In this document: positions 7,619 through 26,381 of the stretch, piece by piece
How positions within the stretch are numbered: position 1 is the first letter of the stretch
Layout of the letters: each line of letters begins with the position of its first letter
Source: Grifola frondosa
Taxonomy: Eukaryota; Basidiomycota; Agaricomycetes; Polyporales; Grifolaceae
Reading direction: 5' to 3'
DNA length: 64,000 nucleotides
Assembly: GCA_001683735.1 (NCBI GenBank)
Contig: LUGG01000004.1
Span: forward strand, 1,550,001-1,614,000
The notes under the pieces: model-generated
Told to the model about the DNA's origin: nothing
The model's input: the letters and a program-made list of their open reading frames with translations, nothing else
Databases searched by the model: none
Position numbers and translations under genes: made by a program

Positions 7619-7627
7619 ACGGCGACG
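7619..7627 (+). repeat. 9-bp target-site duplication, left outer (ACGGCGACG)
   Basis: ACGGCGACG directly abuts the terminal TAGGCTCG of element copy 1. Its exact reverse complement, CGTCGCCGT, abuts copy 2 at 9001-9009. After re-inverting the core the two would be direct repeats flanking copy 1, as a 9-bp target duplication should be. Confidence 0.85.
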
Positions 7628-8672
7628 TAGGCTCGAACGTCGTGTGAGGGGCCACTGAGAGGTCCCCCGTGGGAACGCTGAGTTTCAATATGCCGGCGGC
7701 AATTCGATCACCTGATCGCGACGCGGGCGAAGGAGGCAAGACGCGTCGGGACTCGGTAGCTGTACTTCTTCCTATTTACACACTTTGTAACTGAATTTCA
7801 TTGTCTGAATGCTCTCGGGACTCTCTCGACTGTATGGCGTGAAAAATGTCATCTTCCGACCGTCCAACTGTTCCAACTGGATCAAGAACCTCTTTCTTGT
7901 TGGGTATATAAGTAATCGTCAAAGTGGCAGGAACTGCATGCAAAAGATATCCCGACGGCAAAGCTGGAAGAAACCAGAGGTAAAAGTATACTGTGATTCA
8001 GAAGGGCTGAAAATTAGGTACAAGATTGAAATGTATCCGTGAGGTGAGGAAGGAAGTTGTCCGTGACACCATAGCTTCACGGGCAAGGTAGCATTCATGC
8101 CATAAGAATGGATTTGATGAACAACGGGGTTCAACCGAGGTGTAGCGCATGGTACGAAAACATCGTGCGCTTCAGCTGATTCGACAAATTAGTGGGTTCA
8201 TTTACACCGCTGTAAATGGACTTCAAGTCAACTTGGACTAAAATCTGCATGATGAGCTTTGGACCTACCATGGATTGCTCACCCCCTTCTGACTACCCTG
8301 AATTCGTCTTCAAGTTCTGGTTAAGTTTAATTGTCGGTCGCATCTTCGCTAAACAGCTGCATTGACAATCATCCGGTCTTCCTGCAGTACGTCTGTAACG
8401 GGTATTGACACTTCCGAGAGCCTGAGAAGTCCCTCAGTGATGTAGATAATCTCATGGTGGCTCATTTTAAGCAAAGTAGCAGAATATGAGTGAGATGCAG
8501 TGTGCGCACGACAGGATCGTAGTATTTCAATACTCCGTGCGCGATCGTGCCGTCGGCACGTTCAATCTCCGCGTTCCCATGGGGGACCTCTCAGTGGCCT
8601 CTCACACGACAATCCAGCCTCTATACAGAGGAACGACTGTCTTCCGCATATAGAGGCTGGCTAGCGAGCCTA
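7628..8672 (+). mobile_element. Mutator-like non-autonomous DNA transposon, copy 1
   Basis: A 1,045-bp element beginning TAGGCTCG (7628-7635) and ending in the inverse CGAGCCTA (8665-8672). Its own terminal inverted repeats run about 80-90 bp and share GTCGTGTGAG, GGCCACTGAGAGGTCCCCC and GGGAACGC. The inner end additionally carries a segment of about 53 bp with a 12-bp-stem hairpin (8614-8625 with 8649-8660). It matches copy 2 in reverse complement almost base for base; I counted about seven small differences. The 9-bp target duplications and long inverted ends are characteristic of Mutator-like elements (established for that superfamily). No transposase is visible; the longest minus-strand frame, 7919-8134, resembles no known protein. 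It would have to be mobilised by an enzyme encoded elsewhere. Confidence 0.82.
8614..8660 (+). repeat. Subterminal hairpin of element copy 1
   Basis: CCAGCCTCTATA (8614-8625) pairs perfectly with TATAGAGGCTGG (8649-8660) around a 23-nt loop. The same structure is present in copy 2 near 9022-9068, but only at the inner ends, so it is an asymmetric part of the element. Confidence 0.75.
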
Positions 8673-8681
8673 GATGAGACA
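8673..8681 (+). repeat. 9-bp target-site duplication, left end of core (GATGAGACA)
   Basis: This abuts the inner end of copy 1. Its exact reverse complement, TGTCTCATC, abuts the outer end of copy 2 at 13802-13810. In the original orientation both would be direct copies flanking copy 2. Confidence 0.85.
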
Positions 8682-9000
8682 GTACCGCCGAGCTGACCTA
8701 TCGTCAGGAGCAATAATGTCCTGCTCAATACCCTCAAAACGGCAGGCTAGGAGGACTTTCGCCATCATATTTGGAATCGAACTGGATTCAAATTCTGTTC
8801 CCCAAAAATGGCCGAATACATTAAAAGGCAGGACTTCTAGCAAGTTGGTACCAGTGTCGTTCGCAAGCGGTGGGTCTGTCAATGATATAGGAATCACAAG
8901 TTTGAGGTATGTAGAGGGTGAGATAGGTCCAATCATAGCCATTTGCCAAAGGGAGTATTGATGCGGAGCGTATACTACGTGATGCTCTCTTTATAGTCCA
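8682..9000. other. Core between the two Mutator-like copies, apparently inverted
   Basis: The core including its flanking 9-mers spans 8673-9009 (337 bp). It is host DNA lying between two oppositely oriented transposon copies. The 9-mers at its two ends match, in inverted form, the 9-mers outside the elements, which is what inversion by recombination between the copies would give. Frames open on both strands (8674-8961 plus, 8670-8942 minus) but neither resembles a known family. Confidence 0.7.
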
Positions 9001-9009
9001 CGTCGCCGT
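9001..9009 (+). repeat. 9-bp target-site duplication, right end of core (CGTCGCCGT)
   Basis: Exact reverse complement of the 9-mer at 7619-7627; abuts TAGGCTCG (9010-9017) of element copy 2. Confidence 0.85.
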
Positions 9010-10206
9010 TAGGCTCGCTAGCCAGCCTCTATATGCGGAAGACAGTCGTTCCTCTGTATAGAGGCTGGATTGTCATGTGAGAGGCCACTGAGAGGTCCCC
9101 CGTGGGAACGCGGAGATTGAACGTGCCGACGGCACGATCGCGCACGGAGTATTGAAATACTACGATCCTGTCGTGCGCACACTGCATCTCACTCATATTC
9201 TGCTACTTTGCTTAAAATGAGCCACCATGAGATTATCTACATCACTGAGGGACTTCTCAGGCTCTCGGAAGTGTCAATACCCGTTACAGACGTACTGCAG
9301 GAAGACCGGATGATTGTCAATGCAGCTGTTTAGCGAAGATGCGACCGACAATTAAACTTAACCAGAACTTGAAGACGAATTCAGGGTAGTCAGAAGGGGG
9401 GTGAGCAATCCATGGTAGGTCCAAAGCTCATCATGCAGATTTTAGTCCAAGTTGACTTGAAGTCCATTTACAGCGGTGTAAATGAACCCACTAATTTGTC
9501 GATATCAGCTGAAGCGCACGATGTTTTCGTACCATGCGCTACACCTCGGTTGAACCCCGTTGTTCATCAAATCCATTCTTATGGCATGAATGCTACCTTG
9601 CCCGTGAAGCTATGGTGTCACGGACAACTTCCTTCCTCACCTCACGGATACATTTCAATCTTGTACCTAATTTTCAGCCCTTCTGAATCACAGTATACTT
9701 TTACCTCTGGTTTCTTCCAGCTTTGCCGTCGGGATATCTTTTGCATGCAGTTCCTGCCACTTTGACGATTACTTATATACCCAACAAGAAAGAGGTTCTT
9801 GATCCAGTTCATCAGCAAAACTCGAAACACTCTGATTTCCTCTGAATGACTCTGTTTCATCTGAGTGTCTGAACCATCAGACCATTCCAGACGTAACAGA
9901 GGTTTCATAAGCCCTTGTCATCTGAAAGCTCTGAAGCCTCTTGATGGTCTTCAGCAGAAGCTTCAGAGCTTCAGAACAATAAGAATATCCAGACACAGCT
10001 CAGATTTCAGATGGAATAGAGCCTCAAGATTTATTTACAGACTGCTCAGAGCTTACAGATTGCCTAGATTATAATTTAGCTACTTGTACATAATGTCTGA
10101 CAGCACCTCCGCAATCAGCACCGAAACACAAAGTGCTCCAACACGTACGTGCGCCGCCTGTTAGCCACGGTATGTTTGCGTCCGACGGCGTGATACGAGC
10201 GGCTGC

Positions 10207-11645
10207 CTAAGTACGTCGTAGTCCCGCGCAGATGAATGCCTCGTTCGCACCGGCATTGCAGCTGATAACGGAGCCCGCAACATAGAGCAGCGTGTCCATG
10301 AAGATCGGGTGAATGACGTACGCACCCTTAGAAGCGCCGCAGGCAGCTGCACAACTGCGTACGCGTCGATGCCATTTGCCTAGATAGCAATAGACTTCAT
10401 GCTGTGGAAGATCGGTGAGTAGGCGACGATACGCGAGAAGACAAGGTCGTACGCTGTGCACGTGTAGAATATTTCCGCAGCGCGGGAGTTGAGCACGGCC
10501 TGCCGGCGCCGCTGGACCATCGTGCTCGCAAGCGTAAGCTTCGACGCACGCTCCGAGCTGCCTCTGACGTCGAAGACGCCTGTGCAGCACGGTTGGCGTT
10601 CGCCGCCTGTAGTGTACGAGCTGATGGTAAATGTGTAAGCATACTTCTCGCCAGATGCTTGAGTGTGATGTCCGTGCGTACCATGCTTGCGACATCTCGA
10701 GAGTAGACGAGGGAGTTCGAGTAGGTGATCCCGGCAAGGTTGAGCACAACGTCCGCTGGCATGCGCGCGAGGTGCTCAAGCATGAGCTGTGCGCCGGCCG
10801 CTGTGAGTTCGTGGTATACCGAGGCTGGGCACAACGCGAAGCCAGATACCTTATGGCCTTCGACTAGGTCCGCAAGGAGGCTGAAAGGCGTCTCGAACAC
10901 ACCGTCGACGCCCTCCGCAGAAGGCAAGCCAACACAGGAGTCAAGCAGGGAAAAGCGGGGCTTGGGGAGTGTCGAAGCGAGCTGGCAGCAGCGGGCGTTC
11001 TCCTCGAAGGTCACCCAATAGCGCATGCCGGCGAAAGGATACAGCGGGAGGTCCACGAGATAGACGCGAGGGCATTGAAGACCTTGTGCCACGCGATATC
11101 ATTGGCAACGGGGAGCGCGTACAGTCCAGCTAGGGCAGCACAAAGCACGGCGAAGTCGGAGGTATCCATACGTAGCGAGGGGAGGAGCAAGGGTGTGCCC
11201 ACGCATCCCTGGAGGCAGCGCAGCATCGGGAACGTCGTGGGGTGCGGACCGATCTCGATGCATGCTGTGACCTAGTCGTGAATTCGGGGCCGCGCACAGC
11301 AACCAGCCATAGTGCATCATCCGGTTTCAGCACCCCGACGGTGACCAGCCCAAGGCTAGTCAAAAAGAGAAAAAACACACTCACAAACGGCACGCGCTCA
11401 TGCAGCTCCACGCCCATCCCGATGTACTACCCGCCCTGCCCGCTGAACGCAAACAGCACCTTCGCCCGCTCCCTGCCCTTCTGCAGCACGACCTCCACTA
11501 TCTGTGTGTTGTGCAGGTTCCCGAGGAGCTCCACGGAAGAGCAGCGTGACTGCCACGCGGTGCGGGAAGAGCTTGCGCCGCACAGTGTTGGAGTATGCAG
11601 TGTCCATGAGCGCGAGCACATCGTGCGGAGCATCCTCAAGTTGAG
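10207..11645 (-). pseudogene. Non-reducing polyketide synthase fragment (AT remnants and product-template domain)
   Basis: Read on the minus strand this is a stretch of a fungal iterative NR-PKS in several frames. In order: the KS-AT linker with RRKLFPHRVAVT (about 11570), the AT start FAFSGQGGQYIGMG (about 11420-11450), a short piece GVLKPDDALWLVAVRG (about 11290-11335), and the AT end IEIGPHPTTFPML (about 11220-11260). The product-template domain follows with LYPFAGMRYWV, the catalytic-His motif EGHKVSGFALCPASVYHE (about 10805-10860) and HPIFMDTLLYVAG with the catalytic Asp (about 10270-10310). The SAT, KS, ACP and thioesterase domains are absent. The AT has lost the GHSxG active-site region and most of its middle. 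Stops and frame changes exclude activity. It lies inside a transposon and was probably captured. Confidence 0.8.
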
Positions 11646-11659
11646 CAATGGGTGCCGCT

Positions 11660-12800
11660 AAGGCCGCTGGAACAACCTAGTGATAAGTGATGGGAAGTGG
11701 GGAGAGTGGATGAGAGAACGAGGTGCGCGATGCAGCCTAAGGTGAGTGAGAGCGTGAGAGTACGAAACGAAGTTGAACTTGCGCGCTTCGAACTTCTCAG
11801 TTCTGGCGTTCGGTGGCTGCCGCCTCACGTTCGAGTCCACTTCCACCTCCATGACTCGCTGTCATACCTTGGCTCTCAGGCGTGTCTCTCTACTTGCTCT
11901 TGGTCTCCGTCGGTTGGTCTTATTTACCTGGTCTGTCACCCCTGCATATCCCTACGAGCGTACATGCCTGCGCCCGTTGCCAACACCCCGCACTGCGCTC
12001 CTTACACCCACCTCTCGTCCACGCTCCATGTCTGCGCCCCACTGCACTGCAGTGCACGCCTGTGCCAGTGCTCGTGCCTGACCCATGCCCGCCCGACTCA
12101 TCCGCGCTCACACCCCGCGCGCACCCATCGTACGTGCCCGCCCTGCGCACTGCACCCCTCGTAAGTATTAGCTCTGATATCATCCGCCATCACACCATTT
12201 TATATCGTGTGCGCATATCCAGGCAGACGCATCTTACCTCCCCCGCGTCCTGCGCTGTAGATGAGCAGCCCCGTCCGCACCGTCTCTGTCGTTCTCGTCG
12301 TTCCCGTTTATCACCTGTCTGCCTTCCTAAGACCCGGCACCGGCCATTCACCCTGCGGTCGTGCACATCCCGTGTGCTCGTTCTAGTCCAGCCCGCATCC
12401 CCGTCCACATTCGATGAGCGCAGTCCTCAACCCGACGAGTAGAGTTGTTCGACATCATGCTGAACTCGCCAAACGCAACGCGGACACCTCATTGGCCGGC
12501 TTCTTCCTTTCCCCCACTGACACAGCTTGAAAGCTGCCATTCGGGCAAGCATTCCGTGCGACCCGCATCCACACATTTTCAACTCCTCCACGCAAACCGT
12601 CGATCGATGCGCGTCCTGCACATACCCCATCCTAGATGCATCTGACCGCACGATCAAAACCCCCCGCGTGTGTACTATCTCTGTCGTTCTCCTCGTTCCC
12701 TCACCTGTCCGCCGACCTGAGACCTGGCACCACGCATCCACGCTACACCCGTGCACACAGGGTGCGTATGTTCTAGTCCAATCCACGTTTGTGTTTGCGT
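11660..12800. other. GC-rich interior of the nested transposon, unassigned
   Basis: This stretch has long but compositionally biased frames (Pro, Ser, Cys, His, Arg rich) and no recognisable domain. Two segments, about 12270-12400 and 12670-12790, are similar to each other (CTCTGTCGTTCTC, TCACCTGTC, GGCACC, GTTCTAGTCCA in the same order), suggesting an internal duplication of about 400 bp spacing. A protein-like stretch containing HHAELAKRNADTSLAGFFLS lies near 12450-12520; its source is unknown. Confidence 0.4.
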
Positions 12801-12809
12801 TCACTTCGT

Positions 12810-13025
12810 CGGTGCGCTGCAGACGGCGGAGGAGAACGAGATCCAGGGTGGCGTCGCGGACGTCGTGTCGCACTTCGACTCGCGCTTTCGACTCTTACAT
12901 ACCAACCTGTGTATTCTTATATATGCAGGACCTTACATTTAGCCAATACCTCGCGCTGCTGACTGTCGCTGATGCATTCGTGGTGACGAGTCTGAGAGAT
13001 GCCATGGCGCTGAGGCCCTGCGCAT
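12810..13025 (+). pseudogene. Trehalose-phosphate synthase (GT20) fragment
   Basis: Two blocks typical of fungal trehalose-6-phosphate synthase family proteins: QTAEENEIQGGVADVVSHF (12819-12875) and, in a different frame, QDLTFSQYLALLTVADAFVV followed by TSLRDAMALRP (12930-13020). The second block is the nucleotide-sugar-binding part of the GT20 fold, where intact proteins continue with EGM/HEF residues; here it runs into a stop within a few codons. The frame change between the blocks and the missing remainder make it non-functional. It sits in the same transposon as the PKS fragment but on the opposite strand, so the two pieces come from different source genes. Confidence 0.75.
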
Positions 13026-13801
13026 GATTTGGCGGACACTGGTACCCGCCCATGCCTGCCGATAACCCACGCTTCGTGCGCCCCGCCCAGATCTCCCCGC
13101 TATCTCGCCCGCAGCGGCCTATGCGCACCTGCAGGAGGCCTGTAGTCCTACGGTTGCGACTCGTGCTTCACCGTCACCAACGCGGCATGTGTCCACCTCT
13201 GGCACACTGTCTGAGTTGTATGGAATTTGATGTGAGTTCATGAGTCGATCGACGTGACAAGAAGATCCATACAGAATTGAGATGTTCTTATTGTTTGGAC
13301 AGTCTGGATTGTCTTAAAATTCTTATGGAATGAGTGCTGAAATTCTGGTCTGGATTAGCTGATTGCTCTGTACCCTCTGTAATCTGGACTTGTCTGGACT
13401 GTAGATATGTAATAATACATTTGTTCTGGTTATCTTAAATGTCGAATCCCTCTGATTTTTCTGAGAGATTTTCATCTTAAATAAGACACTCCAGACACAT
13501 TCAGACGAATTCAGACGAATTCAGACGAACTCAGACACACTCGAGTTTTCCTGATGTTGAACAGTTGGACGGTCGGAAGATGACATTTTTCACGCCATAC
13601 AGTCGAGAGAGTCCCGAGAGCATTCAGACAATGAAATTCAGTTACAAAGTGTGTAAATAGGAAGAAGTACAGCTACGAGTCCCGACGCGTCTTGCCTCCT
13701 TCGCCGCGTCGCGATCAGGTGATCGAATTGCCGCCGGCATATTGAAACTCAGCGTTCCCACGGGGACCTCTCAGTGGCCCCTCACACGACGTTCGAGCCT
13801 A

Positions 13802-13810
13802 TGTCTCATC
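13802..13810 (+). repeat. 9-bp target-site duplication, right outer (TGTCTCATC)
   Basis: Exact reverse complement of the 9-mer at 8673-8681; abuts the outer end of element copy 2. Confidence 0.85.
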
Positions 13811-24900: not shown

Positions 24901-26381
24901 TTATAGAAGTTATGAGAAACGAAAACCGCGAAATACCTCCCACATGGTCGCTACTGTCGAGGTGTCTATCTCCATTTCTATAGTCTCTGACGAATGCTGA
25001 TATACTACCTATAGCACGAAGCAATTGCGGCGATATCATCCGCCGGCAGTCAAAACAAAGCTTCAGCAGCGCGCACAATGGAAAGAGGCGCTTGATGCGG
25101 CAGCAAACAAAGCCTTCCTGTGCTTCTTGCAGGAGATTACGCAGAATCACTATGGGATTTTGCGTGACTCGGTGAACAAGCTGGCCACTGCGGATTGCCT
25201 TCTAAGTCTCGCACTCGTGGCTGTACAAGAAGGCTACGTCAAGCCGGACTTTACGGAAGACGATACCCTTGAAATCGTTGCAGGCAGGCATGCAATGATC
25301 GAAGCGCTCAGGTCTGAGCCCTTCGTTCCAAATTCCATACACATGGGCGGGGGTAAGCCGGGAAGCAAAATCATTACAGGTCCGTTGGTGTCGAGTTGCG
25401 CATGGCATTTTGAAATTTATGTATTGAATGTGAAGGACCTAACATGGGTGGTAAAAGTTCTGTTGTGCGAATGATTGCATTATGTGCTATTGTAAGTCGC
25501 TCTTGATTTTACATAACCTTCTACTCATATGATTTCATGTCGTTCAGATGTCTCAAGTGGGCTCGTACGTACCTGCTAAGTACATGAAGACTCGCTTGCT
25601 CGACGGCATACTAACCAGGATGGGCGGTGAGTTCGCAAGGTATGACGTTGACAGCATGGACTGAACCTCGTGTCTTCACAGCTTCGGATGATTTAGCCCG
25701 CGGTCGATCAACTTTCATGGTTGAGATGCAAGAAACAAGTGATATTTTACAGATGGCTACGTCGAAGACACTGGTTATCTTAGATGAGCTTGGCCGTGGA
25801 ACTTCTACATTCGACGGGGTGAGTTTTTTCCGCCATTTGGTACATCACAGGTCTCAGGAATGCATCCCCAGATGGCTATTGCCGGAGCGGTACTGCAACA
25901 CCTCATTCAAGTTGTCAAATGCAAGACATTATTTATCACACACTATCCTCAAGTGGCTACGGAGCTAGAACGAAAATTTCCTTCTGACGTGGAGAATCTT
26001 CATATGGGCTTCACCGAGGACACTCGCGTCGATGGGACGAGAGAAGTGACATTCCTGTATCGCTTGGCCGCTGGAATCACTGCCGAATCGTTTGGCGTGG
26101 AATGTGCGCGACTGGCAGGCCTCCCCGAATCTGTGTTGCGAACGGCCAGCGATGAAGCTCAGCGCATGAAGGCTCTCATAGAAGCGCGTGTCAGGCGAAA
26201 TAAGTGCGTTAGCATTACTCCGCTAGACTCTCACTCACACGCACCCAGAACCCGCAAATGTGTCAGGCTGCTCCATCAGTGTCAGGATTCTTCTCACATT
26301 GGACAAGTACTCAAGCTCGAAGAGCTCCAAGCAATGGCAGAATCGATGGGAATATATGACAGATCTACATACAGCACCTAA
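21977..26381 (+). CDS. MSH3: DNA mismatch repair protein Msh3 (apparent frameshift)
   Basis: Msh3 pairs with Msh2 (MutS-beta) to recognise insertion/deletion loops. The start at 21977 is supported by the N-terminal PCNA-interacting box QATLSSFF about 17 residues in. A disordered region with a basic segment follows. The mismatch-binding domain begins [20 protein letters not shown] with [15 protein letters not shown]. Connector and lever pieces include [37 protein letters not shown] and [20 protein letters not shown]. The ATPase has Walker A as GPNMGGKSS once an intron is removed, [30 protein letters not shown], Walker [17 protein letters not shown], and [10 protein letters not shown]. The helix-turn-helix end includes [18 protein letters not shown]. 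One base appears missing near 23899 ([18 protein letters not shown]). More than a dozen introns. Its stop overlaps that of POL5. Confidence 0.95.

Follow-up and report, generated by a model that had tools for sequence, protein, structure and literature searches.

How did two oppositely oriented copies of one transposable element come to flank a short piece of single-copy DNA, and why are the target duplications of these copies exchanged between them? The locus that raises this question lies in a 64-kb stretch of DNA (the window, analyzed as a whole), which contains no N. The window belongs to contig C4; the assembly totals 39.06 Mb in 64 contigs and, to judge from its size and gene content, probably comes from a fungus. 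A first-pass annotation of the same DNA had proposed that two Mutator-like elements inserted independently, and that homologous recombination between the inverted copies then flipped the DNA between them. We recomputed the structure of the locus, determined the kinship of the two copies within their family, and weighed the routes by which the arrangement could have formed.

Exchanged target duplications at the junctions

On the plus strand, the outer left junction of the locus is formed by the 9-mer ACGGCGACG (7619-7627), which we call x. It is followed by element copy 1 (7628-8672, 1,045 bp, plus strand), with its left end pointing outward and its right end towards the core. The inner junction of copy 1 carries the 9-mer GATGAGACA (8673-8681), the reverse complement of a 9-mer that we call t. 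Next comes a single-copy core of 319 bp (8682-9000), or 337 bp with both flanking 9-mers, which is assigned to the minus strand on the basis of the swapped duplications. The inner junction of copy 2 is formed by CGTCGCCGT (9001-9009), the reverse complement of x. Copy 2 is on the minus strand, again with its right end towards the core and its left end outward, and is split into a right-hand part of 800 bp (9010-9809) and a left-hand part of 245 bp (13557-13801) by a later, nested transposon of 3,747 bp (9810-13556, listed without a strand). The 9-mer t itself, TGTCTCATC (13802-13810), forms the outer right junction. The equal length of the two copies is partly coincidental, in that 1-bp indels and the nested-insertion site cancel out.

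All four 9-mers directly abut element ends, and the members of the pairs ACGGCGACG/CGTCGCCGT and GATGAGACA/TGTCTCATC are exact reverse complements of each other. Either reverse-complement pair arose by chance in 112 of 2,000,000 random 9-mer placements in the same neighborhood, and if the two pairs are assumed to be independent, the probability of both is approximately 8e-10. Recomputation reproduced the coordinates, the opposite orientation of the copies, and the four 9-mers with their pairing, all of which had been given in the first-pass annotation.

A search of the assembly with the element returned at least 61 matches (40 of the 43 candidates scored), and among the matches listed are at least four further copies of full length, each 1,053 bp long. 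Copies without 9-bp duplications, which the first-pass annotation had regarded as damaging to its reading, were looked for in this set: each of the four further full-length copies found is flanked by a perfect direct 9-bp duplication, and at a family copy with a deletion, 521 bp long, the flanks agree at 8 of 9 bases. Judged from these flanks, 9 bp is the duplication length of this element family. Since the other full copies have direct duplications, and the two 9-bp flanks of copy 1 agree at only 4 of 9 bases, the present junctions are exchanged, and the 337-bp core now lies in the orientation opposite to the one it had when the target duplications were made. On this point, the swapped 9-mers and the family-wide direct duplications bear out the earlier reading.

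Apart from this locus, a script found no pair with swapped duplications in the 64-kb window and the fetched loci. We considered whether copy 1, the core and copy 2 had moved as a single composite unit, and rejected this, since the outer 9-mers ACGGCGACG and TGTCTCATC differ. In a search of the assembly for an empty site or a second haplotype, the core, the left flank and the right flank each matched only themselves. Coding potential was abandoned as a guide to the orientation of the core, as the frames across the junctions are ambiguous in both the present and the flipped orientation; an 87-residue frame of the core had no relative (two candidates, none with E <= 10).

Kinship of the two copies

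We aligned copies 1 and 2 with the four other full-length copies. Seven substitutions, a 3-bp insertion and an 11-bp deletion are common to copies 1 and 2 and absent from the other four. Outside the nested-insertion site, copies 1 and 2 differ from each other by 2 substitutions and 5 one-base indels, all of them private (two columns at the nested site bring the raw count to 3 substitutions and 6 gap columns). Both substitutions are changes of C to T at CpG, each in one copy. In a tree that includes the deleted copy, the split between copies 1 and 2 and the rest is found in 99% of 200 bootstraps; the other splits are weaker (42-72%), and the branch of the deleted 521-bp copy is very long and unreliable. 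Searched as a 25-base pattern with up to 3 mismatches, the junction of the 11-bp deletion has two occurrences in the assembly, one in copy 1 and one in copy 2; a more diverged third member would escape this search. On the evidence of these shared changes, copies 1 and 2 are sisters to the exclusion of the other family copies; most likely one gave rise to the other here, or the two descend from a donor that has since been lost.

This kinship bears directly on the model of the first-pass annotation, in which two insertions from separate donors were followed by homologous recombination between the inverted copies. The model accounts for the swapped duplications, and its mechanism is documented for the transposon Galileo in the sections of PMC2775673 cited here. 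The private shared changes, together with a deletion junction that is present in these two copies only, make two independent insertions unlikely, however. The copies are exclusive sisters and non-chimeric, and they are separated by 2 substitutions where 14 would be expected, this figure being that of the closest pair among the other full copies (the six pairs among those four differ by 14-26 substitutions); the Poisson probability of 2 or fewer is 9e-5. For the copies to have arrived independently, a donor from this subfamily must have been lost, or gene conversion must have covered at least alignment positions 96-912, and we consider independent arrival highly improbable.

Among the five 1-bp indels (alignment positions 37, 98, 128, 555 and 668), which outnumber the two substitutions between the copies, four are cases in which copy 1 agrees with the other four copies or in which the change lies within short base runs of one copy. 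Given this pattern, the indels may possibly be sequencing errors of the assembly. Such errors would also fit an assembly artefact, in which the core was wrongly oriented between inverted repeats of 1 kb, a mistake that would yield exactly swapped duplications. The contiguity of the assembly and the N-free window suggest that reads or clones crossed 1 kb, and we give the artefact very little credence.

Possible routes to an inverted core

Swapped duplications alone cannot decide the mechanism, since all the models give the same arrangement: ectopic recombination would leave them just as one-step insertion of a hybrid element would. The first-pass annotation had taken the scar as the one expected from homologous recombination, but it is not specific to it, the same arrangement being expected from hybrid element insertion according to the sections of PMC2775673 used here. 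In a script, the hybrid-element model and the model of two insertions plus crossover both reproduced the observed arrangement; copy 1 stood in for copy 2 as well, and the ancestral orientation of the core was an input, so that the script tests the logic and provides no independent evidence. Swapped target duplications can be mistaken for proof of recombination between two old insertions.

What can distinguish between the models is the ancestry of the copies. Delprat and colleagues faced this ambiguity with Galileo, and in the cited sections of their paper hybrid element insertion is stated to give identical copies and ectopic recombination to give chimeric copies, with 33 + 20 diagnostic sites showing the Galileo copies to be chimeras (PMC2775673). 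In the present alignment, there is no site that differs between copies 1 and 2 and whose two states are both also seen among the other full copies. This absence speaks against a crossover between insertions that had already diverged. It is equally expected after a local hop followed by crossover between sister copies; such a crossover would leave no trace, and one step and two steps are therefore not separated by these sites.

We lean towards the hypothesis that one aberrant transposition, of the hybrid-element or sister-chromatid type, produced the second copy along with the inversion, and hold a single misfired jump to be likelier than two separate arrivals followed by recombination. The starting point would have been a single element at target x, in the order x-E-x-core-t. 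We infer that, after replication, a transposase brought together ends from the two sister chromatids, the left end of one element and the right end of its sister, and that this hybrid was inserted, in a single event, at t, which lies at a distance of 319 bp. Of the two free ends, the right one would have been joined to t on the side of the core, the left one on the far side. The predicted product, x-E-t'-core'-x'-E'-t (primes denote reverse complements), has the observed order, and the 9-bp duplication of t would arise in the same step. Afterwards, each copy would have acquired one substitution and a few 1-bp indels, and the 3.7-kb nested transposon would have inserted into copy 2.

A route in two steps is possible but doubtful in our view. 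In the first step, ordinary cut-and-paste would have moved the initial element, or its sister-chromatid copy, to a site 319 bp away in opposite orientation; in the second, a crossover between the identical inverted copies would have flipped the core, perhaps repeatedly. This accounts equally well for the sister copies and the swapped duplications, and spacer inversions are described in PMC12312487, in the sections cited, for a close pair of opposite VANDAL21 copies with a spacer of about 200 bp. The authors of that study themselves prefer alternative transposition, however, and the route requires two events where one suffices.

Replicative (Shapiro-type) intramolecular transposition, in which strand transfer to t within one molecule duplicates the element, would also produce an adjacent inversion. 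Both the sister copies and the same arrangement are predicted (the latter was derived by hand, and the scripted string serves both one-step models). We know of no established route of this kind for eukaryotic cut-and-paste transposons, and the element family has no linked transposase; we therefore regard replicative transposition as very improbable.

To return to the one-step hybrid-element transposition that we favor, the locus joins an already known kind of transposon-flanked inversion. It shares with the P element of Drosophila and with Ac/Ds of maize an inversion between opposite copies with exchanged target duplications, as far as described in the cited parts of PMC2775673 and PMC8225341; the latter also mentions sister-chromatid transposition of Ac/Ds, rearrangements caused by P elements and, in fungi, non-standard transposition of impala in Fusarium. 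In contrast to those systems, the locus belongs to another transposon family with 9-bp duplications, the inverted segment is only 319 bp long, and the case is known from the sequence of one genome. Identical copies are expected from hybrid element insertion (PMC2775673, sections cited), and those found here are near-identical. The Galileo inversions of Drosophila buzzatii resemble the locus in their opposite copies, exchanged duplications and later nested insertions, according to the same sections, and differ from it in their chimeric copies.

The VANDAL21 pair is similar in layout, with two nearby MULE copies in opposite orientation around a short spacer. The cited sections of PMC12312487 describe this head-to-head pair as a source of somatic spacer inversions and deletions in Arabidopsis met1, and attribute the rearrangements to alternative transposition, to which VANDALs had not been linked before according to those authors, who mention a suggested inversion mediated by VANDAL5. 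There, a pre-existing pair generates somatic rearrangements, whereas here the structure is fixed in the assembly, the right ends of the elements point towards the core, and the swapped 9-bp duplications are intact.

The locus illustrates the need to check the history of the copies, as one faulty transposition can both multiply an element and invert nearby DNA. An event of 319 bp with four intact junction 9-mers and near-identical copies offers a clean case for asking about the frequency of such inversions in natural, probably fungal, populations, and it raises the question of whether a transposase that makes 9-bp duplications drives them.

The element family and associated insertions

The label 'Mutator-like', given to the element by the first-pass annotation, rests on the 9-bp duplication, which lies inside the range of 8-11 bp reported for target duplications of MULEs in the sections of PMC6446971 cited here, which also report MULE terminal repeats of 14 to 500 bp and MULEs without any. 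The element differs from them in having a perfect terminal repeat of 8 bp and, in addition, a 73-bp inverted repeat with 85% identity that is offset by 52 bp at the right end, and no transposase has been linked to it. As to a MULE transposase, PF10551 had no match in the assembly, in a search whose control was positive in 3 of 14 genomes and from which introns can hide exon-sized domains. PF20700 had no match in the assembly either, but its control gave none in any genome. For the hAT domain PF05699, 27 matches were found in the same assembly. We treat the Mutator-like label as a lead only. The absence of a linked transposase in this family also speaks against the hybrid-element reading, as does the restriction of the data to one assembly.

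A locus near a diverged left end of the element family (L052, G000:C21:484000-493699) was considered as an autonomous partner. It was rejected, as by eye its frames resemble a Copia-type retroelement rather than a matching transposase.

The right end of the 1-kb element also occurs in free elements of 46-53 bp that are identical or close to it (compare window 8620-8672). These mini-elements begin at TAGGCTCG, and their far end is variable in position and lacks a matching inverted repeat. We sampled 20 of the 22 short matches listed that cover the right end only. Perfect 9-bp duplications at the TAGGCTCG-type end and at the far end 46-53 bp away were found in 8 of the 20 (L032, L034, L035, L037, L039, L040, L042 and L045), and 2 more agree at 8 of 9 bases (L041 and L048); the remaining 10 agree at 7 or fewer. 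None of 380 mismatched flank pairs, used as a control, reached 8. Although they have one recognizable end only, the mini-elements probably use the same transposase as the 1-kb element. Their identification as introners was rejected by eye, the duplications having no constant GT or AG.

The nested transposon in copy 2 has CATCAG...CTGATG ends. Another full-length copy, with 97% identity, is present on contig C5, and there are many partial copies. A possible 2-bp duplication is TT in the window and TG at the contig C5 copy, although a 2-bp match easily arises by chance and one adjacent base is missing at the window insertion. A frame of the nested transposon has a weak match to a polyketide-synthase dehydratase (PF21089, 20.5 bits against a curated cut-off of 27 bits), and the transposon may possibly carry a gene fragment.

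Elsewhere in the window, at 25615-26381, some frames resemble by eye the C-terminal portion of a MutS-type mismatch repair protein.
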